Source: Alphaproteobacteria bacterium (GTDB lineage Bacteria; Pseudomonadota; Alphaproteobacteria; UBA2966; CAIVPW01). Taken from it: a stretch of DNA of 64,000 nt. Shown here piece after piece: positions 47,908 through 57,537 of the stretch (position 1 is its first letter; the number at the start of each line of letters is the position of its first letter). A model generated the notes under the pieces. It was given only the letters and a program-made list of their open reading frames with translations, did not search any database and was not told where the DNA came from. The stretch lies in NCBI GenBank assembly GCA_947481575.1, contig CANKGV010000006.1, positions 1 through 64,000 on the forward strand, read 5' to 3'. A program made the translations under genes and the position numbers.

Positions 47908-48735
47908 GTGGGCGACGCAAGACGCCGCAGCGAGTCCGGAGAAACCGGACCTTGGCGCCCGCACCTGCCGCCGACCGCCGGTCCGCGCGGGTCCGAGGCG
48001 CGCGAGACTGCACGCCTTGCAATGCTCACCAAGGCGGCGGAGACCCACACCGCCGAAGCGCTGCACGCGGCGCGCGAGCGCGGCGGGAGCGAGGGTCTAG
48101 CGTTTTTGGCCGGCGTGATCGCCAACGCTGGGGCCATGCTCGAAACGGAGGTCGCATCCGCCTACACCGAAACGCTGCGGCGGGTTCAACTGCACAAGTC
48201 CATCGCGTGCCAAAAAGGCTGCACTTCGTGCTGCTACATTCCGGTAGCGGTGACGGTGGTGGAAGCGATCGGCGCCGCCGTTGCGGCGGCGCGCGACCCA
48301 ACGCTGCTCGCCCAAATAGCATTGCTCTCGCCAGCGATTGCCGCGGCGGGCGATTTTGGGCGGTGGCGGCAACGGCTCCCGTGCACCCTGCTGCGCGACG
48401 GGGCGTGCGCGGTTTACACCGACCGCCCGCTGCCGTGCCGTGCCTACGTGTCGCTCGACGCGGGGCGGTGCGAGCGGGCGCTGGCATCTGGCAGCACCGC
48501 AGCGCAATTCTCCATTCCGGTCCTGGACCTGCCGCGCCAACTGGCGGCGGCGCTCCGTTCCGGCATCCGGGCGGCCTGCACTGCCCAAGGGTTGCAGGAC
48601 GCGCACGTTGAGCTCACGGCCGCGGTTGCCCAGCTGGTGGCCGACCCTACCGCGGGGCCGCGCTGGCTGGCCGGCGAAAAGGTGTTTACGCCCAAAGCGC
48701 CGCCCAATCCGGCCGTGCTCGAATCGTTGAATTGA
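47908..48735 (+). CDS. YkgJ-type cysteine cluster protein, tandem copy 1
   Basis: 275 residues from a GTG start just behind the HD-GYP gene. It opens with GDARRRS, then a helical N-domain, then the cluster C101-x3-C105-x2-CC (CQKGCTSCC) and C159, C167, C177 and C188 in LPCTLLRDGACAVYTDRPLP and following. This is the YkgJ zinc/iron-chelating pattern. The tail DPTAGPRWLAGEKVFTP recurs in the other two copies. Soluble; no signal peptide. The three copies diverge strongly outside the cluster, so the duplication is old. Confidence 0.85.
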   Translation: MGDARRRSESGETGPWRPHLPPTAGPRGSEARETARLAMLTKAAETHTAEALHAARERGGSEGLAFLAGVIANAGAMLETEVASAYTETLRRVQLHKSIACQKGCTSCCYIPVAVTVVEAIGAAVAAARDPTLLAQIALLSPAIAAAGDFGRWRQRLPCTLLRDGACAVYTDRPLPCRAYVSLDAGRCERALASGSTAAQFSIPVLDLPRQLAAALRSGIRAACTAQGLQDAHVELTAAVAQLVADPTAGPRWLAGEKVFTPKAPPNPAVLESLN

Positions 48736-48765
48736 GGCGGGCGGCGAAACCGCTACTCTGCCCCC

Positions 48766-49578
48766 ATGGGTGAAGCCAAACGCCGCCAATCCGCGCAGAC
48801 CGTCGGCCGACCATGGCCGCCGAAGCTGCCCCCATTGCCCCCCGGCACCGCCAACGCGACACCGGCGACCCGTGAGCTTCAGCGGCTGGCGATGTTGGGC
48901 CGCATGGCGGAGACCAATACGCGCACCGCCCTACAGGCCGCCCGCGCCGCCACGGACAACGGCGCGCGGGATCAGATTCTCGACTCGATCCTCCAGGGCG
49001 CGTGCGGCCTGCTGGAAGGCGAGGTGCGCACCGCATACGCGGCCAACGCTGAGTCCGCGCGCCTGTGGAGCACCGTGGCCTGCCGCAAGGGTTGTTCGTG
49101 GTGTTGCCACATCCAGGTCGAGACGACGATTGTCGAGGCGATCGTCGTCTCGCGTCAGGTGGCGAAGTCGGAATCGCTGACCGCGTCGGTGCTGGCGGCG
49201 GCACCGGCCGTTGCGGGAACGGACTCGGTGGGCCGGTTGCGCAAGCGCGTCGCGTGCCCCCTGCTGGTCGACGGAGCGTGCTCCGTCTACGACCACCGCC
49301 CCGGCGCGTGCCGCGCTCATGTGTCGCTGGACGACAAGGCGTGCGAGACCGCGCTCAAGACCGCCGGGACCGCGGACGAGGCCCGCAAGATTCCGACCGT
49401 AGTGGTCCCGCGCAAGATCGATACGGCGATCAGCTTCGGTGTCCGCCGTGCCTGCGCCGCCGAAAATCTGCAGAGCTGCGACGTGGAACTGACGGCGGCG
49501 CTTTGCCTGTTGGCGACCGACTCAACCGCGGTGAGCCGGTGGCTGGCCGGTGAAACCGTCTTCACACCCTATCCGTGA
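48766..49578 (+). CDS. YkgJ-type cysteine cluster protein, tandem copy 2
   Basis: 270 residues, 30 bp after copy 1. It starts MGEAKRRQSAQTVGRPWPPK and carries C106-x3-C110-x2-CC (CRKGCSWCC), then ACPLLVDGACSVYDHRPGAC and VSLDDKACE. It ends WLAGETVFTPYP, matching copy 1. All cluster cysteines are kept. Probably an intracellular metal-binding protein, partner unknown. Confidence 0.85.
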   Translation: MGEAKRRQSAQTVGRPWPPKLPPLPPGTANATPATRELQRLAMLGRMAETNTRTALQAARAATDNGARDQILDSILQGACGLLEGEVRTAYAANAESARLWSTVACRKGCSWCCHIQVETTIVEAIVVSRQVAKSESLTASVLAAAPAVAGTDSVGRLRKRVACPLLVDGACSVYDHRPGACRAHVSLDDKACETALKTAGTADEARKIPTVVVPRKIDTAISFGVRRACAAENLQSCDVELTAALCLLATDSTAVSRWLAGETVFTPYP

Positions 49579-49667
49579 TGGGCGAAGCGCGGCGCAGCCA
49601 GTCGGCACAGACCAACGCGCGTCCGTGGCCGCCGCTCGGCAAGACCGCGTTTCGACCGTGTCCTTAG
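49578..49667 (+). pseudogene. N-terminal stub of a further YkgJ-type copy
   Basis: An ATG sharing its first base with the copy 2 stop opens a 29-codon frame: MGEARRSQSAQTNARPWPPL, then GKTAF and a TAG. The first 18 residues are nearly those of copy 2 (MGEAKRRQSAQTVGRPWPP), and nothing of the cysteine domain follows before copy 3. This is the leftover of a deleted copy, or a duplicated gene start. It could still be translated as a short peptide. Confidence 0.75.
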
Positions 49668-49707
49668 CGGAGAAGTAGCCGTATCGCGCTCCGGGGAGGG
49701 GGCACGC

Positions 49708-50508
49708 ATGGGCGACGCAAAACGTAGAAAGCAGGCTTCCACCGAAGGGTTGCAGGAGGCTCGCCGCGAGAACTTTCACAAAGGCTTCAATCCGGCCGAG
49801 CGCGTGCAGCTCGACCGCGTCATCGACCTCGCCTACCGCAACACCCGGTCCGCCATCGCGCATGCCCGCGAGGCCGGCGATGCCGCCCTAGGTGAGGCGG
49901 CGCTCGCAGCTGCGCATGCGAGGAGCGCGCACATCCAGGACGAATTGACCGAACAGTTCCTCGCGAGCGGCGCCGAAGGGGAACGCATCCGGAGCGAGAT
50001 CGCGTGCAAAAAGGGCTGCTTCTTCTGCTGCCACGTGAACGTCGAAGTCTCGATTCTGGAGGCGATCGCAGTCGCGGCGGAAGCACGCAAAGACCCGGCC
50101 AAGGTCGCCAAGGTGTTGGCGACCGCTCCGGCGATCGCGGGACTGGGCGCCAAAGACCGGATTGGCGCGCGGGTACTGTGTCCTGTGTTGAAGGACGGCG
50201 CGTGTTCCGTATACGAGGCGCGGCCGCGCGCGTGCCGTGCATTCACGTCGTTCAGCGCCGGGCGCTGCGAAGAGGAGTTGCTGAACGGCGGCGGCACCGA
50301 GAAATTCCTGAACTTCGGCTGGCCACGAATCCTATCGGCCGCGGCGAGCCACGGGGTCCAACAAGCGTGCGCCCACGATGGCCTGCAGTCGTTCACTGTA
50401 GAACTGACCGCGGGCACCGCCACGGTCTTGGGCGACCCGTCCGCGGTTGGACGCTGGCTGGCGGGAGAACAGGTATTCGCTCCGTACGCGGCGTCCGAGC
50501 CGGACTAG
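49708..50508 (+). CDS. YkgJ-type cysteine cluster protein, tandem copy 3
   Basis: 266 residues. It opens MGDAKRRKQASTEG and has a longer helical domain, then C100-x3-C104-x2-CC (CKKGCFFCC), VLCPVLKDGACSVYEARPRA and FSAGRCEEEL. The end RWLAGEQVFAPYA matches the others. A GGGAGG lies 19 bases upstream of the ATG. Its last codon overlaps the convergent ccdA stop by 4 bp. Confidence 0.85.
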   Translation: MGDAKRRKQASTEGLQEARRENFHKGFNPAERVQLDRVIDLAYRNTRSAIAHAREAGDAALGEAALAAAHARSAHIQDELTEQFLASGAEGERIRSEIACKKGCFFCCHVNVEVSILEAIAVAAEARKDPAKVAKVLATAPAIAGLGAKDRIGARVLCPVLKDGACSVYEARPRACRAFTSFSAGRCEEELLNGGGTEKFLNFGWPRILSAAASHGVQQACAHDGLQSFTVELTAGTATVLGDPSAVGRWLAGEQVFAPYAASEPD

Positions 50509-51330: not shown

Positions 51331-51627
51331 CTACATATCGCCGACGGTATCTGCGGTGGAGAGGTCGGCGCAAAACCGCACCACCGGCCCGCGGCCGTTG
51401 ATGGGATCGCGCCAGATCTGCCGGTCGATCAACATCGAGAACGCAGCGCACGCTTTGCGGTTGCCTTCGCGGTAGTAGCCTTCCACCCCGGCGGCACCGA
51501 GGATCACCAGGATCACCAGCCACGCCAGCGGGGTGCGGAAGAACCGGACCAGGGCCGCACTTTCCGGAACTACCCGGATGGCGGACGGCTCCATCCGCAG
51601 TTCAGTGTCGGTGCGCGGCAGGCTCAT
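51331..51627 (-). CDS. Small membrane protein, array family B copy 3
   Basis: 98 residues. One membrane helix (AWLVILVILGAAGVEG) follows RFFRTPL; then comes YYREGNRKAC with C60, SMLIDRQIWRDPINGRG and RFCADLST with C86. Both cysteines and the RTPxAWV, REGNRK and LIDRQ words are shared with the other B copies. Its ATG overlaps the stop of copy 2 (ATGA). With a basic pre-helix segment the cysteine part should be periplasmic. No known family recognised. Confidence 0.85.
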   Translation of the reverse strand: MSLPRTDTELRMEPSAIRVVPESAALVRFFRTPLAWLVILVILGAAGVEGYYREGNRKACAAFSMLIDRQIWRDPINGRGPVVRFCADLSTADTVGDM

Positions 51628-51956
51628 CGTTGGGCCCGGGTGTAGGTGTCCGGGTTCGTAAGGTCCTGGCACTCGTCCATGATGCGCCGCGTCGCGCCAC
51701 CGGCACCGCCGATTTGCTTTAGGTACGACTGCCGGTCGATCAGCATCGACACGGTCGCGCACTCCTTGCGGTTGCCTTCGCGAATCTGGCCTTCCGCACC
51801 GATGGTGCCGATCAGAATCGCCAACAGCACCCACGCCAGCGGCGTACGAATGAATCGCAGCAATGCGCCGGGACGCGCCGGAGCGCGCAAGTCCTCGCTC
51901 GGCGCACGAATCCGGGCGGCGGTCAGAAGGTCGTTGTCGGCGAAGGGTGCACTCAT
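51624..51956 (-). CDS. Small membrane protein, array family B copy 2
   Basis: 110 residues: a 30-residue polar N-terminus, RFIRTPLAWVLLAILIGTIG across the helix, QIREGNRKEC (C66), SMLIDRQSYLKQIGGAGG and IMDECQDLT (C96). Two conserved cysteines as in the other B copies. It starts 3 bp after the stop of copy 1 and overlaps copy 3 by 4 bp, so the genes are surely co-translated. Function unknown. Confidence 0.85.
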   Translation of the reverse strand: MSAPFADNDLLTAARIRAPSEDLRAPARPGALLRFIRTPLAWVLLAILIGTIGAEGQIREGNRKECATVSMLIDRQSYLKQIGGAGGATRRIMDECQDLTNPDTYTRAQR

Positions 51957-51959
51957 GGC

Positions 51960-52301
51960 CTAGTAGTGGTGGAAGGAGGAAGGAAGGCTGAGGTCTTGGC
52001 AGAACCAGATCACCCGCATCATGCCGCCTTGCGGCTCGTAGTCGGGCATGCCGCGGCCGACGCCGGTAATCGGATTGCGGAACGGCTGATGGTCGACCAG
52101 TTCATTCGCGGTGGCGCACGCGACAAAATTGCCGTGGCGCAAGTACCCTTCCACCCCACCGGCGACGAGGATGCCCGCAATCAACACCCATGCCATCGGC
52201 GTCCGCAGAAAGCGCAGCACCGCGGAGTCGGCTTCCGGGGCAACCGCCGCCGTCACCGCGCGGTGAGCGCGCTCCAGTCCCTCGGCGAATTGCGCCGTCA
52301 T
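51960..52301 (-). CDS. Small membrane protein, array family B copy 1
   Basis: 113 residues from the ATG at 52301, which shares one base with the stop of the gene before it (TGATG). RFLRTPMAWVLIAGILVAGG spans the helix; then GYLRHGNFVAC (C62), ELVDHQPFRNPITGVGRG and WFCQDLSLP (C101). Compared with the other B copies it has a 15-residue insertion before the second Cys (MPDYEPQGGMM). Function unknown. Confidence 0.85.
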   Translation of the reverse strand: MTAQFAEGLERAHRAVTAAVAPEADSAVLRFLRTPMAWVLIAGILVAGGVEGYLRHGNFVACATANELVDHQPFRNPITGVGRGMPDYEPQGGMMRVIWFCQDLSLPSSFHHY

Positions 52302-52657
52302 CAGAACACCTGGCTGTTGCCGCTGCGCGGACGGCAGTTCTGGGCAAAGTTCGCGCGATTGCCGTTGGACCAGTGCGACCAGCCGCCGGGGCGGCAATCG
52401 CTGAGCGGCCACAAGCCGATGAAGCGCGCCGGAATGCGCCCTTTGCACATCTCGTAGCTCTGGTTGTCGAGCGGCTGGACGAAGTACTCGTCGATCGCGG
52501 TCGGGCCAAACGACACCTGCGCCGCGTCGGAGCACGTCTGGTCGAAGTTGCGGTCCGCATGCACCGCCGAAGCGGCCGCGATGCCGATGAACACCAAGGT
52601 GATCCAAGTCACCGGGTTCAGCAGGAAATCGCGGCTTAGTCCGATGGCGGCGAGCAT
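52301..52657 (-). CDS. Small membrane protein, array family A copy 3
   Basis: 118 residues. After FLLNPVTWITLVFIGIAAAS (membrane helix) come AVHADRNFDQTC (C42), YFVQPLDNQSYEMCKGRIPA (C71), GLWPLSDCRPGGWSHWSNGN (C88) and NFAQNCRPRSGNSQVF (C108). The C-terminal 60 residues are almost identical in the three A copies. Four invariant cysteines in a presumed periplasmic domain suggest two disulfides or a metal site. Start and stop each share a base with the neighbouring genes. Confidence 0.87.
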   Translation of the reverse strand: MLAAIGLSRDFLLNPVTWITLVFIGIAAASAVHADRNFDQTCSDAAQVSFGPTAIDEYFVQPLDNQSYEMCKGRIPARFIGLWPLSDCRPGGWSHWSNGNRANFAQNCRPRSGNSQVF

Positions 52658-53016
52658 CAAAACACCTGAACGTTGCCGTCTTTGGACCGGCAATTCTGCG
52701 GGAAGTTGGCGCGGTTGCCGTTCGACCAGTGCGACCAGCCGCCCTTGGTGTTGCAGTCGCTGAGCGGCCAAATCCCTGCGTAGCGGGCCGGGATACGGCC
52801 CTTGCACGCCTCGTAGGTCCGGTTGTCGAGCGGCTGCACGAAGTAGATGTCGAGCGCGGTGATCTCGATCACCACGGGCGCGATCGCGTAGCACGTGCTG
52901 GTGAAGTTCCGGTCGGCGTGCACCGCCGACACGACCGCGATCGCGAACAGCGCCGTGGTAACCCACGTCGCCGGGTTCAACAGAAAGCTGCGGTCGATGC
53001 CAAGGCGCGCCAGCAT
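52657..53016 (-). CDS. Small membrane protein, array family A copy 2
   Basis: 119 residues. FLLNPATWVTTALFAIAVVS forms the helix, followed by AVHADRNFTSTC (C42), YFVQPLDNRTYEACKGRIPA (C71), GIWPLSDCNTKGGWSHWSNG (C88) and NFPQNCRSKDGNVQVF (C109). One residue is inserted relative to copies 1 and 3. It starts 5 bp after the stop of copy 1. The strict Trp/Asn/Gly pattern after the third Cys looks like a folded binding site. No family recognised. Confidence 0.87.
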   Translation of the reverse strand: MLARLGIDRSFLLNPATWVTTALFAIAVVSAVHADRNFTSTCYAIAPVVIEITALDIYFVQPLDNRTYEACKGRIPARYAGIWPLSDCNTKGGWSHWSNGNRANFPQNCRSKDGNVQVF

Positions 53017-53021
53017 GAAGG

Positions 53022-53378
53022 TCAGAACACCTGGCTGTTGCCGCTGCGGGCGCGGCAGTTCTGCGGGAAGTTCGCTTTGTTGCCGTTCGACCAATGCGAC
53101 CACCCGCCGGGACGGCAATCGGTCAGCGGCCACAACCCGACAAAACGCTGCGGAATGCGGCCCTGGCAGTACTGGTAGGTGAGGTTGTCCAACGGCTGAA
53201 CGAAATATTCGTCGGCGCCGGTGGCGCCAACCACGACCGGCGCGATCGCCGCGCACGTGCTGTCGAAGTTGCGGTCCGCTTTCACCGCCGAGCCGATGGC
53301 GACACCCGCCATCACCACGGCGATCCAAGTCACCGGGCTGAGCAGGAACGCCCGGTTGAAACCGAGGGTCGCGAGCAT
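53022..53378 (-). CDS. Small membrane protein, array family A copy 1
   Basis: 118 residues; the start at 53378 (MLATLGFNRAFLL) is chosen because copies 2 and 3 begin MLARLG and MLAAIG; an ATG at 53384 is two codons earlier. FLLSPVTWIAVVMAGVAIGS is the helix, then AVKADRNFDSTC (C42), YFVQPLDNLTYQYCQGRIPQ (C71), GLWPLTDCRPGGWSHWSNGN (C88) and NFPQNCRARSGNSQVF (C108). First gene of the array; its promoter region is shared with the divergent Sel1 gene. Confidence 0.86.
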   Translation of the reverse strand: MLATLGFNRAFLLSPVTWIAVVMAGVAIGSAVKADRNFDSTCAAIAPVVVGATGADEYFVQPLDNLTYQYCQGRIPQRFVGLWPLTDCRPGGWSHWSNGNKANFPQNCRARSGNSQVF

Positions 53379-53515
53379 TGCCATCGCAAGGCCTGTCTGG
53401 TGTTGGTCCCCGGCCCACACCGCCGGACTCCGCGTCTTCCATACCACGGCGGCCGGGTTGGCGTGTAGAGGGCGGGACCTTTGACCGCGGGCGCTCGCGG
53501 TCTAGTGTCCTGGCC

Positions 53516-54550
53516 ATGCGCCGCACCCAAATTGTGTTCGCCGGGCTGGTCTTGGCGTGGCTGTGCACGGCCGGGCCGGCGCGCGCCGAGTTTGCCGCGG
53601 GATTCGAAGCGTTCCGGGGCCGCGACTATCCAACCGCAGCGGCGGAGTTGGCGCCGGCGGCGACGGCCGGGGACGCTGGGGCGGCAATCCTGATGGCGCT
53701 CATCGCCGCCAACGGCTACGGCGCTGCCGCCGACCCGGCGGGCGCCGTTCACTGGCTTGAACTTGCAGCAGCAGCCGGGGACGTTCCCGCACGGGCGATG
53801 GCCGGCTCGTTGCTGGGGATCCGGCGCAACGTGACGATGGAGTTTGCCGCGGCGCTGGCCCTGGTGGCGCCGCGCTCCCAAGCCGGTGACGCCCACGCGC
53901 GGTATTTGCTCGGCTGGATGACCGCCAACGGCCTGGGCGTGCCGCGGGACGAGGCCGCTGCTGCCAGCCTGTACCGTAGTGCCGCCGACCTTGGCGATGC
54001 CGAGGCGCAGAATCGCCTCGCCGCGCAGTACCTGACGGGCGGGGCGATCGCCCAAGACGAAGCCCAGGCCGCCGCATGGTTCACCAAGGCCGCGACCCAA
54101 GGCCACGCCGGTGCCCAGGCGGCCCTCGCATACCTGTACGCGGCCGGGCGCGGTGTAACCCGCGACGACGCCGTGGCGGCCAAATGGGCGCGGGCAGCGG
54201 GCGAGCAAGGGTTGGCCGAGGGGCAGTTCTTCCTGGCGGGGCTATACGCGAGCGGCCGTGGTGTTGCCGAGGACCAAGGAGCGGCGTTCAGCTGGTTCTA
54301 CCGCGCGGCGCAGCAGGGGTACGGCCCGGCCCAGTTCAAGCTGGCCGAGATGTACGCCGATGGCGGTGCAGTGCCGCAGGACTACGAGGAGGCCTGGTTC
54401 TGGCTGTTTCGCGGCGCGATCGCCAGCGCCGGTGTGGTGTTCAACATCGAGGCCCTGCGCGACAGGATCGAAGCGCACTTGGACCCGGCGCGCGAGGCGG
54501 CCGTGGAAACGCGTGCGCTGCAATGGGTGCCGGCCGTGCCGAAGCGGTAG
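53516..54550 (+). CDS. Secreted Sel1-repeat protein
   Basis: 344 residues from the ATG at 53516. A signal peptide (IVFAGLVLAWLCTAGPARA) is followed by five to six Sel1-like repeats of about 36 residues, for example ARYLLGWMTANGLGVPRDEA, AQAALAYLYAAGRGVTRDDA and GQFFLAGLYASGRGVAEDQG. Such solenoids bind partner proteins in the periplasm. It is divergent from the six-gene array with 131 bp between, so the two may be co-regulated. It ends 1 bp before the convergent TetR gene. Confidence 0.9.
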   Translation: MRRTQIVFAGLVLAWLCTAGPARAEFAAGFEAFRGRDYPTAAAELAPAATAGDAGAAILMALIAANGYGAAADPAGAVHWLELAAAAGDVPARAMAGSLLGIRRNVTMEFAAALALVAPRSQAGDAHARYLLGWMTANGLGVPRDEAAAASLYRSAADLGDAEAQNRLAAQYLTGGAIAQDEAQAAAWFTKAATQGHAGAQAALAYLYAAGRGVTRDDAVAAKWARAAGEQGLAEGQFFLAGLYASGRGVAEDQGAAFSWFYRAAQQGYGPAQFKLAEMYADGGAVPQDYEEAWFWLFRGAIASAGVVFNIEALRDRIEAHLDPAREAAVETRALQWVPAVPKR

Positions 54551-55740: not shown

Positions 55741-57537
55741 ATGCGCCTCACCGGGTTCCAGATCTGCAAGTACCGCAACATCGTCGACTCCGGTTGGATC
55801 GAGGTCGATGGCATCGCGGCATTGGTCGGCCAGAACGAGTGCGGCAAGAGCAACCTGCTGCAAGCGCTCTACAAGCTGCGCCCGTTCGCCCCCGCTGAAT
55901 ACGACATCGACACCGACTGGCCGATCGACGACTGGGCCAATCGCGACCCCGACACCATCGTGTGCCGCGCCCAGTACGACCTGTTGCCGGCCGAGATCGA
56001 AGCCCTCAAGGCCGAGGCCGGCCGTTCGTCAAAAGCGCTCAAAGATGCGCCCCTGTTCAGCGACCGCCCGGGCGCCAAGGCGGCCGCAGCGCCGTCGCAA
56101 GTATGGGTCGCGCGCACCTACCGCAACGAAATGCGCGTGCAGTTTCCGCCGGAACTCGGCGTTGAGCTCGACCCGGAACTCGCGTCGCTGTGGGTGGGCG
56201 AGCGCATGCCGCGCTGTGTGTACATGGACGACTACGCGACGTTCGCGGGCCACGCCGAGTTGGAGAACCTGTCCGACCGCCTGAAGCGCCACGGCCTGGA
56301 AGGGTTGCGCGAAGATGAGCGCACGGTACTGGCGACCCTCGACCTCGCCGACCTCGACCTCCACGACCTCGCCGCCAAGGGCAAGTCCGAGAAAGGCCGC
56401 GCGATTCGCGCTAACGACACGGCGGCCGCATCGCGCATGCTGAACCAGCGCTTCCGCCACAAGTGGGAGCAGCGCGAGGTGCGGTTTACCCTGCGCGTCG
56501 ACGGCGGCACCCTCGATATCCTGGTGGAAGACGAAGGCCTGGAGGCGCCGGTGCCGCTGCGCCAGCGCAGCCGCGGCTTCCAGTGGTTCGCCTCGTTCGT
56601 GTGGCGCTTCGCTAAGGGCTCGGAAGGCGCGTTCGCCGACTGCGTGCTGTTGCTGGACGAGCCCGGCGTGCATTTGCACCACGCCGGCCACCGCGACTTC
56701 CTGGCGTTCCTGAACGAGCTCGCGGCGTCGAACACGATCCTCTACACGACGCACTTGTCGACGATGCTCGACCCCCAGGCGCCGGAACGCATCCGCATCA
56801 TGGAAATCCGCGACCATCACTCGGTGGTGGTCAACGGCCTGTTCAGCACCCAGCGCGAACCGATGATGGTCATCGAAACGCTTCTCGGCCTTGGCCCGGG
56901 GTTCGTCGAGATGCTGGCGTCGCGGGAATGCCTGATCGTGTCCGGCATCGCCGACGCGATGATCTTGGAGCGTCTGTCGCGCATCCTGCTGCGCTCGGGC
57001 GAGATCGCCCTGGCCGACCGCATCACCCTCGTGCCCGCGGCGGGGCCGCAAGTGGTGCCGTTGGTCGCCGCCTACTTGATCGGCAAGGGTTACGCGGCGG
57101 GGATGCTGGTGAACTCGGACGCGGCCGGCCGCGACGCGCGCGCGAAGATCGCTGCGCGGTTCCTGCCAAAGGCCGATGGCGCCCAGCCCCCCCGCAACGG
57201 CTTCCGTATGCTGTCGTACGGCGAAGTGGTAGGCGCGCGCCACGAGGACTTCGGCATCGAAGACCTGTTCCCCGTGAGCTTCTACCTCAAGGCGGTCAAC
57301 GACGCCTACGACGCCAGCGTATCGGAAGACGATCTGGCCGCCGATGGCGCACCCAACCTGCGGCGCGCCGAGGCCGCGTTGATCAAGCGCGGCTATGCCC
57401 AGGCGATCGACCGCGCCCGGGTGCTCGGCGCGCTGCAGCGGCGTCTGGATGGCGTGCGCATCAAGGCAGACTTGCCCGTCGGTACCTACACCAAAGTCCG
57501 CGTACTATTTGATCGAATCAACGCGGCGTTCGAGTAA
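55741..57537 (+). CDS. AAA ATPase of the OLD-like family with a degenerate Toprim-like C-terminus
   Basis: 598 residues. The ABC-type ATPase half has Walker A GQNECGKSN near 30, a signature-like RQRSRGFQWFASFVWRF and Walker B LLLDEPGVHLHHAGHRDF, then the switch His TTHLST. The C-terminal half resembles the Toprim nuclease of OLD proteins, but where OLD has VEG-x-(S/T)D it reads LIVSGIADAMIL, so the catalytic Glu appears lost; VNSDAAGRDA retains an Asp. OLD-family proteins act in phage defence (for example Gabija GajA) and DNA metabolism. No helicase or other defence partner is next to it. Confidence 0.82.
   Translation: MRLTGFQICKYRNIVDSGWIEVDGIAALVGQNECGKSNLLQALYKLRPFAPAEYDIDTDWPIDDWANRDPDTIVCRAQYDLLPAEIEALKAEAGRSSKALKDAPLFSDRPGAKAAAAPSQVWVARTYRNEMRVQFPPELGVELDPELASLWVGERMPRCVYMDDYATFAGHAELENLSDRLKRHGLEGLREDERTVLATLDLADLDLHDLAAKGKSEKGRAIRANDTAAASRMLNQRFRHKWEQREVRFTLRVDGGTLDILVEDEGLEAPVPLRQRSRGFQWFASFVWRFAKGSEGAFADCVLLLDEPGVHLHHAGHRDFLAFLNELAASNTILYTTHLSTMLDPQAPERIRIMEIRDHHSVVVNGLFSTQREPMMVIETLLGLGPGFVEMLASRECLIVSGIADAMILERLSRILLRSGEIALADRITLVPAAGPQVVPLVAAYLIGKGYAAGMLVNSDAAGRDARAKIAARFLPKADGAQPPRNGFRMLSYGEVVGARHEDFGIEDLFPVSFYLKAVNDAYDASVSEDDLAADGAPNLRRAEAALIKRGYAQAIDRARVLGALQRRLDGVRIKADLPVGTYTKVRVLFDRINAAFE

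Follow-up and report, generated by a model that had tools for sequence, protein, structure and literature searches.

Among described proteins, the closest likeness to the products of the locus analysed here is found in taxonomically restricted small bitopic envelope proteins. The two protein families of the locus, A and B, resemble these in their small size, their single N-terminal helix, a periplasmic disulfide domain that we infer, their restriction to one family of organisms and their occurrence in tandem copies. Unlike such proteins in general, they form long (A) and short (B) versions of one putative superfamily that are coupled and co-amplified, and neither gave a sequence or fold match in the libraries searched. 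Thioredoxin-like thiol-disulfide oxidoreductases offer a second comparison, from which A and B differ in lacking CxxC and any thioredoxin match in Pfam or PDB. From metal-binding modules they appear to differ in carrying just four and two spaced cysteines and no invariant His/Cys ligand cluster. The last comparison is with the CcdA/DsbD transmembrane domain (PF02683), to which the downstream neighbour of the locus belongs and to which the six array proteins show no similarity.

The locus lies in a 64,000-nucleotide stretch of an alphaproteobacterial genome, hereafter the window. Six genes follow one another on the minus strand from 53384 to 51331 in the order A1-A2-A3-B1-B2-B3, flanked by a Sel1-repeat gene and a ccdA gene. 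The array genes were assigned by open reading frame and motifs, and the neighbours by Pfam:

53516 to 54550, plus strand: divergent Sel1-repeat protein gene, upstream neighbour (Pfam Sel1, 1.3e-33)
53022 to 53384, minus strand: A1, family A (long form), bitopic membrane protein, 120 codons
52657 to 53016, minus strand: A2, family A, 119 codons
52301 to 52657, minus strand: A3, family A, 118 codons
51960 to 52301, minus strand: B1, family B (short form), bitopic membrane protein, 113 codons
51624 to 51956, minus strand: B2, family B, 110 codons
51331 to 51627, minus strand: B3, family B, 98 codons
50505 to 51257, minus strand: CcdA/DsbD_TM-type neighbour (Pfam PF02683, 5.5e-16)

The open reading frames, junctions and motifs confirm what an earlier note had proposed from the sequence, namely six packed minus-strand genes in two paralogous triplets. 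The genes span 98-120 codons, three in each family, and the junctions from A1 to B3 measure +5, -1, -1, +3 and -4 bp, with a TGATG stop/start overlap at the A3/B1 boundary. An inner ATG at 53378 would give A1 a 118-codon form that fits the family and is its likelier start. The three A copies share 65-70% pairwise identity, and all carry YFVQPLDN, C-x-GRIP, GxWPLxDC, GGWSHWSNGN and four cysteines, as the note had listed. Identity among the B copies is 39-45%, and all three have RTPxAW and two cysteines in common; of the longer motifs claimed for them, RTPxAWV fails in B3, where the next residue is L, and REGN reads RHGN in B1. The note had also rightly called the next gene on the strand, 73 bp downstream of B3, CcdA-type. 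A search for sigma-70-like promoters found none. The array genes are real, on the basis of homologous cassettes in seven other genomes and of purifying selection.

We compared the window's genome (G000) with seven relatives from the host's own family (G001-G007) and seven genomes of a sister family. Profile searches recovered two to four copies of family A in all eight genomes of the host's family and in none of the seven sister-family genomes, and family B was present in the same eight of eight and again in none of the seven. Among 385 genomes of the class and 398 of the phylum, no believable member of either family was found outside the host's family. Weak class-level matches to A (L053, L054 and L055) were dismissed as chance, two because they lie antisense to an MFS-type gene, the third as a short frame; two weak matches at phylum level (L084 and L085) contained stop codons, and the weak class-level matches to B (L089-L093) were confined to the helix or fell within unrelated or doubtful frames. 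When about 85,000 species genomes were scanned with one degenerate pattern of conserved A residues, drawn from the alignment, only contigs of the same relatives came back: eight contigs, from six of the seven genomes. Their records are metagenome-assembled genomes labelled uncultured Alphaproteobacteria, Proteobacteria or 'Rhizobium sp. Q54'. A query with a single sequence missed all relatives, and viral contigs yielded no relatives. The superfamily is thus, in the samples searched, restricted to one family of uncultured aquatic Alphaproteobacteria. This sample comprises eight genomes of 1.6-2.5 Mb, those relatives with named records being all metagenome-assembled, and isolate names suggest a habitat of lakes and the Caspian Sea. 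A 16S gene was not found in G000.

Every genome with either family holds both in linked cassettes (8 of 8), which is consistent with the note's suggestion of subunits of one complex. All cassettes begin with A, and their layouts are ABAB in G006 and G007, AABAB in G001, G004 and G005, AAAB in G002, ABB in G003 and AAABBB in the window. A-B junctions measure -4 to +2 bp in G006 and G007, and where A meets B the stop and start codons repeatedly overlap, by 1 or 4 bp. The recurrent unit is therefore the A-B gene pair, tandemly amplified within lineages. In the tree of A copies, the three from G002 and the two from G006 each cluster with a support of 100/100, and the window copies lie near one another with weaker support; such within-genome clustering implies repeated amplification, or conversion among copies. 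G003 holds three further A copies on contigs other than that of its ABB cassette:

L047, 172 to 531: stray family-A copy
L048, 283 to 636: stray family-A copy
L049, 3666 to 4019: stray family-A copy

At least two of them (L048 and L049) have no adjacent B. They could reflect true dispersal or mis-binned contigs. One of the stray copies precedes an outer-membrane efflux gene and another a methyltransferase gene.

Taxonomic restriction, varying copy number and some orphan copies are what one would also expect if A and B were unconstrained or decaying tandem repeats, a lineage-specific gene birth held by drift. We regard this as highly improbable. For five pairs of near-orthologues from G004 and G005, dN/dS was 0.13-0.33, which indicates that the proteins are under purifying selection; the copies are intact and have retained the conserved cysteines in 39 of 39 cases, and both families are present in 8 of 8 family genomes of 1.6-2.5 Mb.

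We next consider the relation of A to B. Comparison of the two untrimmed profiles with hhalign gave a P value of 3.5e-4, significant for a single test. With trimmed profiles the score was 29.3, against 13.4 +/- 3.1 in column-permuted controls, of which 0 of 150 reached 29.3; when the membrane columns were kept in place, controls scored 18.8 +/- 2.1 and 1 of 150 reached the A-B score. The spacing Pro-x2-Trp-x23-Cys is identical in A and B, and the profile alignment puts C42/C60 and C71/C86 in register. Homology of A and B is thus supported statistically, as a profile comparison scoring above permuted controls. AlphaFold2 (AF2) models share a layout of a short helix, a helix of about 38 residues carrying Cys1 and a second helix carrying Cys2. 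In A (pLDDT 83, pTM 0.64) the latter two span residues 15-52 and 62-71, and in B, with a modest pLDDT of 71 and pTM of 0.41, residues 33-69 and 81-90. A stretch predicted in A only, towards the C-terminus, carries Cys3 and Cys4 at a pLDDT of about 86-93 (residues 61 to 110). B is probably a short paralogue of A, resembling A minus its C-terminal Cys3-Cys4 part.

The note had recognised neither family, and this was borne out. Pfam gave scattered sub-threshold matches and nothing significant for A or B, PDB sequences no significant match to either, and PDB folds nothing similar. Likewise, no fold similar to A was found among viral models in BFVD, and no significant match came from NCBIfam (searched with A), PHROGs (searched with B) or PADLOC (one A and one B). 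A literature search found nothing on the array. A resemblance to C-type lectins was not significant and was rejected. A weak PDB sequence match to amphinase, of the RNase A superfamily (profile positions 58-116, E 0.45), was rejected as chance, being not significant and without a fold match. By these comparisons A and B represent a newly described family, undescribed in the libraries searched.

Both families carry one predicted N-terminal membrane helix, with the conserved cysteines past it: all 23 A copies have four and all 16 B copies have two, and one B copy has an extra cysteine inside the helix. The flank before the helix bears a net charge of +1 to +4 in nearly all A copies and the far side is mostly neutral or negative, whereas the charge contrast across the B helix is small. 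By the positive-inside rule the cysteines are predicted to be periplasmic, clearly for A and more weakly for B, in agreement with the topology that the note had inferred.

Most A copies have V-x-A|D/E at the end of the helix, which could be a signal-peptidase I site, and A may be cleaved there. This feature underlies the main rival reading, in which A would be a small secreted protein, its helix removed and a mature form, about 84 residues long and holding two disulfides, released. B would then be its partner in the membrane, acting for instance as receptor, chaperone or immunity protein in the manner of secreted peptide/immunity pairs. The joint amplification of A-B pairs and the divergence of A and B paralogues within one genome would suit such a system. 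On the other hand, conservation ahead of the helix equals that of the periplasmic domain (0.71 for each). Cleaved signal peptides do not usually show this, and we favour a membrane anchor for A. Additionally, the AF2 helix runs past the candidate cleavage site, neither family matched a toxin, immunity or defence family, and the cassette has no dedicated exporter or protease gene alongside. We consider secretion of A unlikely. A separate observation concerns the window's single OLD/GajA-like AAA ATPase gene (55741-57537, plus strand), which PADLOC matched to Old (7.4e-13) and GajA.

A second rival takes its cue from the neighbouring ccdA: CcdA would export reductant to the cysteines of both families, and A and B would serve as periplasmic thiol/disulfide or metal-handling modules; a series of thiol/metal-binding modules was one of the options in the note. 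In its favour, ccdA is next on the strand in the window and in most relatives sits no more than a few kb from the cassette, and all conserved cysteines are predicted to be periplasmic. The neighbourhood survey argues otherwise. Two genes on the opposite strand, one for a DUF2089 protein and another conserved one, separate ccdA from the cassette in G001-G005; G007 has a TauE/SafE gene there in addition to this pair; and in G006 ccdA and the cassette are on different contigs. All seven sister-family genomes have ccdA without A or B. The DUF2089 gene is present in 7 of 7 relatives and absent only from G000 among the eight genomes, so that the adjacency in the window is derived and best explained by loss of two genes. 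We therefore judge that CcdA is not a partner of the A/B system, and its neighbourhood with the array is not a conserved operon. The conserved neighbour is instead the divergent Sel1-repeat gene, which adjoins the cassette in G000, G001, G003, G004, G005 and G007; the closest homologue in G006 lies on a contig other than the cassette's.

The conserved cysteines, spaced 17-29 residues apart, form no CxxC in A or B, the alignments contain no invariant His, and a single-copy DsbB is encoded in all eight family genomes. For these reasons, we rate structural disulfides as more probable than either a thiol relay or metal modules, the note's series of thiol/metal-binding modules is not supported, and a relay fed by CcdA seems very improbable.

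Several further features of the neighbourhood were recorded. G000 has 13 places matching the Sel1-repeat neighbour at E <= 1e-20, a large set for 2.45 Mb. Three tandem paralogous CxxCxxCC (PF03692) genes lie on the plus strand of the window within 47908-50508 (47908-48735, 48766-49578 and 49708-50508), the last two matched to Pfam and the third running tail to tail into ccdA with an overlap of 4 bp; the relatives carry about two such genes. In G007 the TauE/SafE-type permease gene (L042, 2026-2940) follows the ABAB cassette on the same strand.

Our preferred reading, to which we give a probability of roughly one half, is that A and B are lineage-restricted, disulfide-held envelope proteins that form hetero-oligomers with a structural or ligand-sensing, non-redox and non-enzymatic role. 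Each protein would start with a short conserved stretch and pass, through a Pro-x-x-Trp entry, into one long membrane helix; beyond it would lie a small periplasmic domain stabilised by a Cys1-Cys2 disulfide, to which A would add a C-terminal subdomain with a Cys3-Cys4 disulfide. The usual DsbB-driven pathway would form the disulfides, and A and B would assemble as membrane-anchored hetero-oligomers in the envelope. We prefer a structural role, or one in ligand binding or sensing, to an enzymatic or redox role, since most of the invariant residues are Cys, Gly, Pro or aromatic ones. Counted against such a complex are the orphan A copies of G003, the small charge contrast of B, its modest model, the possible cleavage of A and a sample limited to eight genomes. 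A bolder version, which we consider rather improbable, envisages a new two-part envelope complex whose copies were diversified by tandem amplification, for example a lineage-unique recognition or ligand-binding array with each A matched to its own B.

These results correct a tempting but wrong guilt-by-association link of the array to CcdA. The shift from (AB)n to AnBn, together with the separate expansions, provides a natural test for the co-evolution of specific A-B pairs. The A/B superfamily is well bounded, has no detectable relative in the searches made and occurs in every sampled genome of its uncultured family, which makes it a lineage marker and a candidate for a core envelope function.
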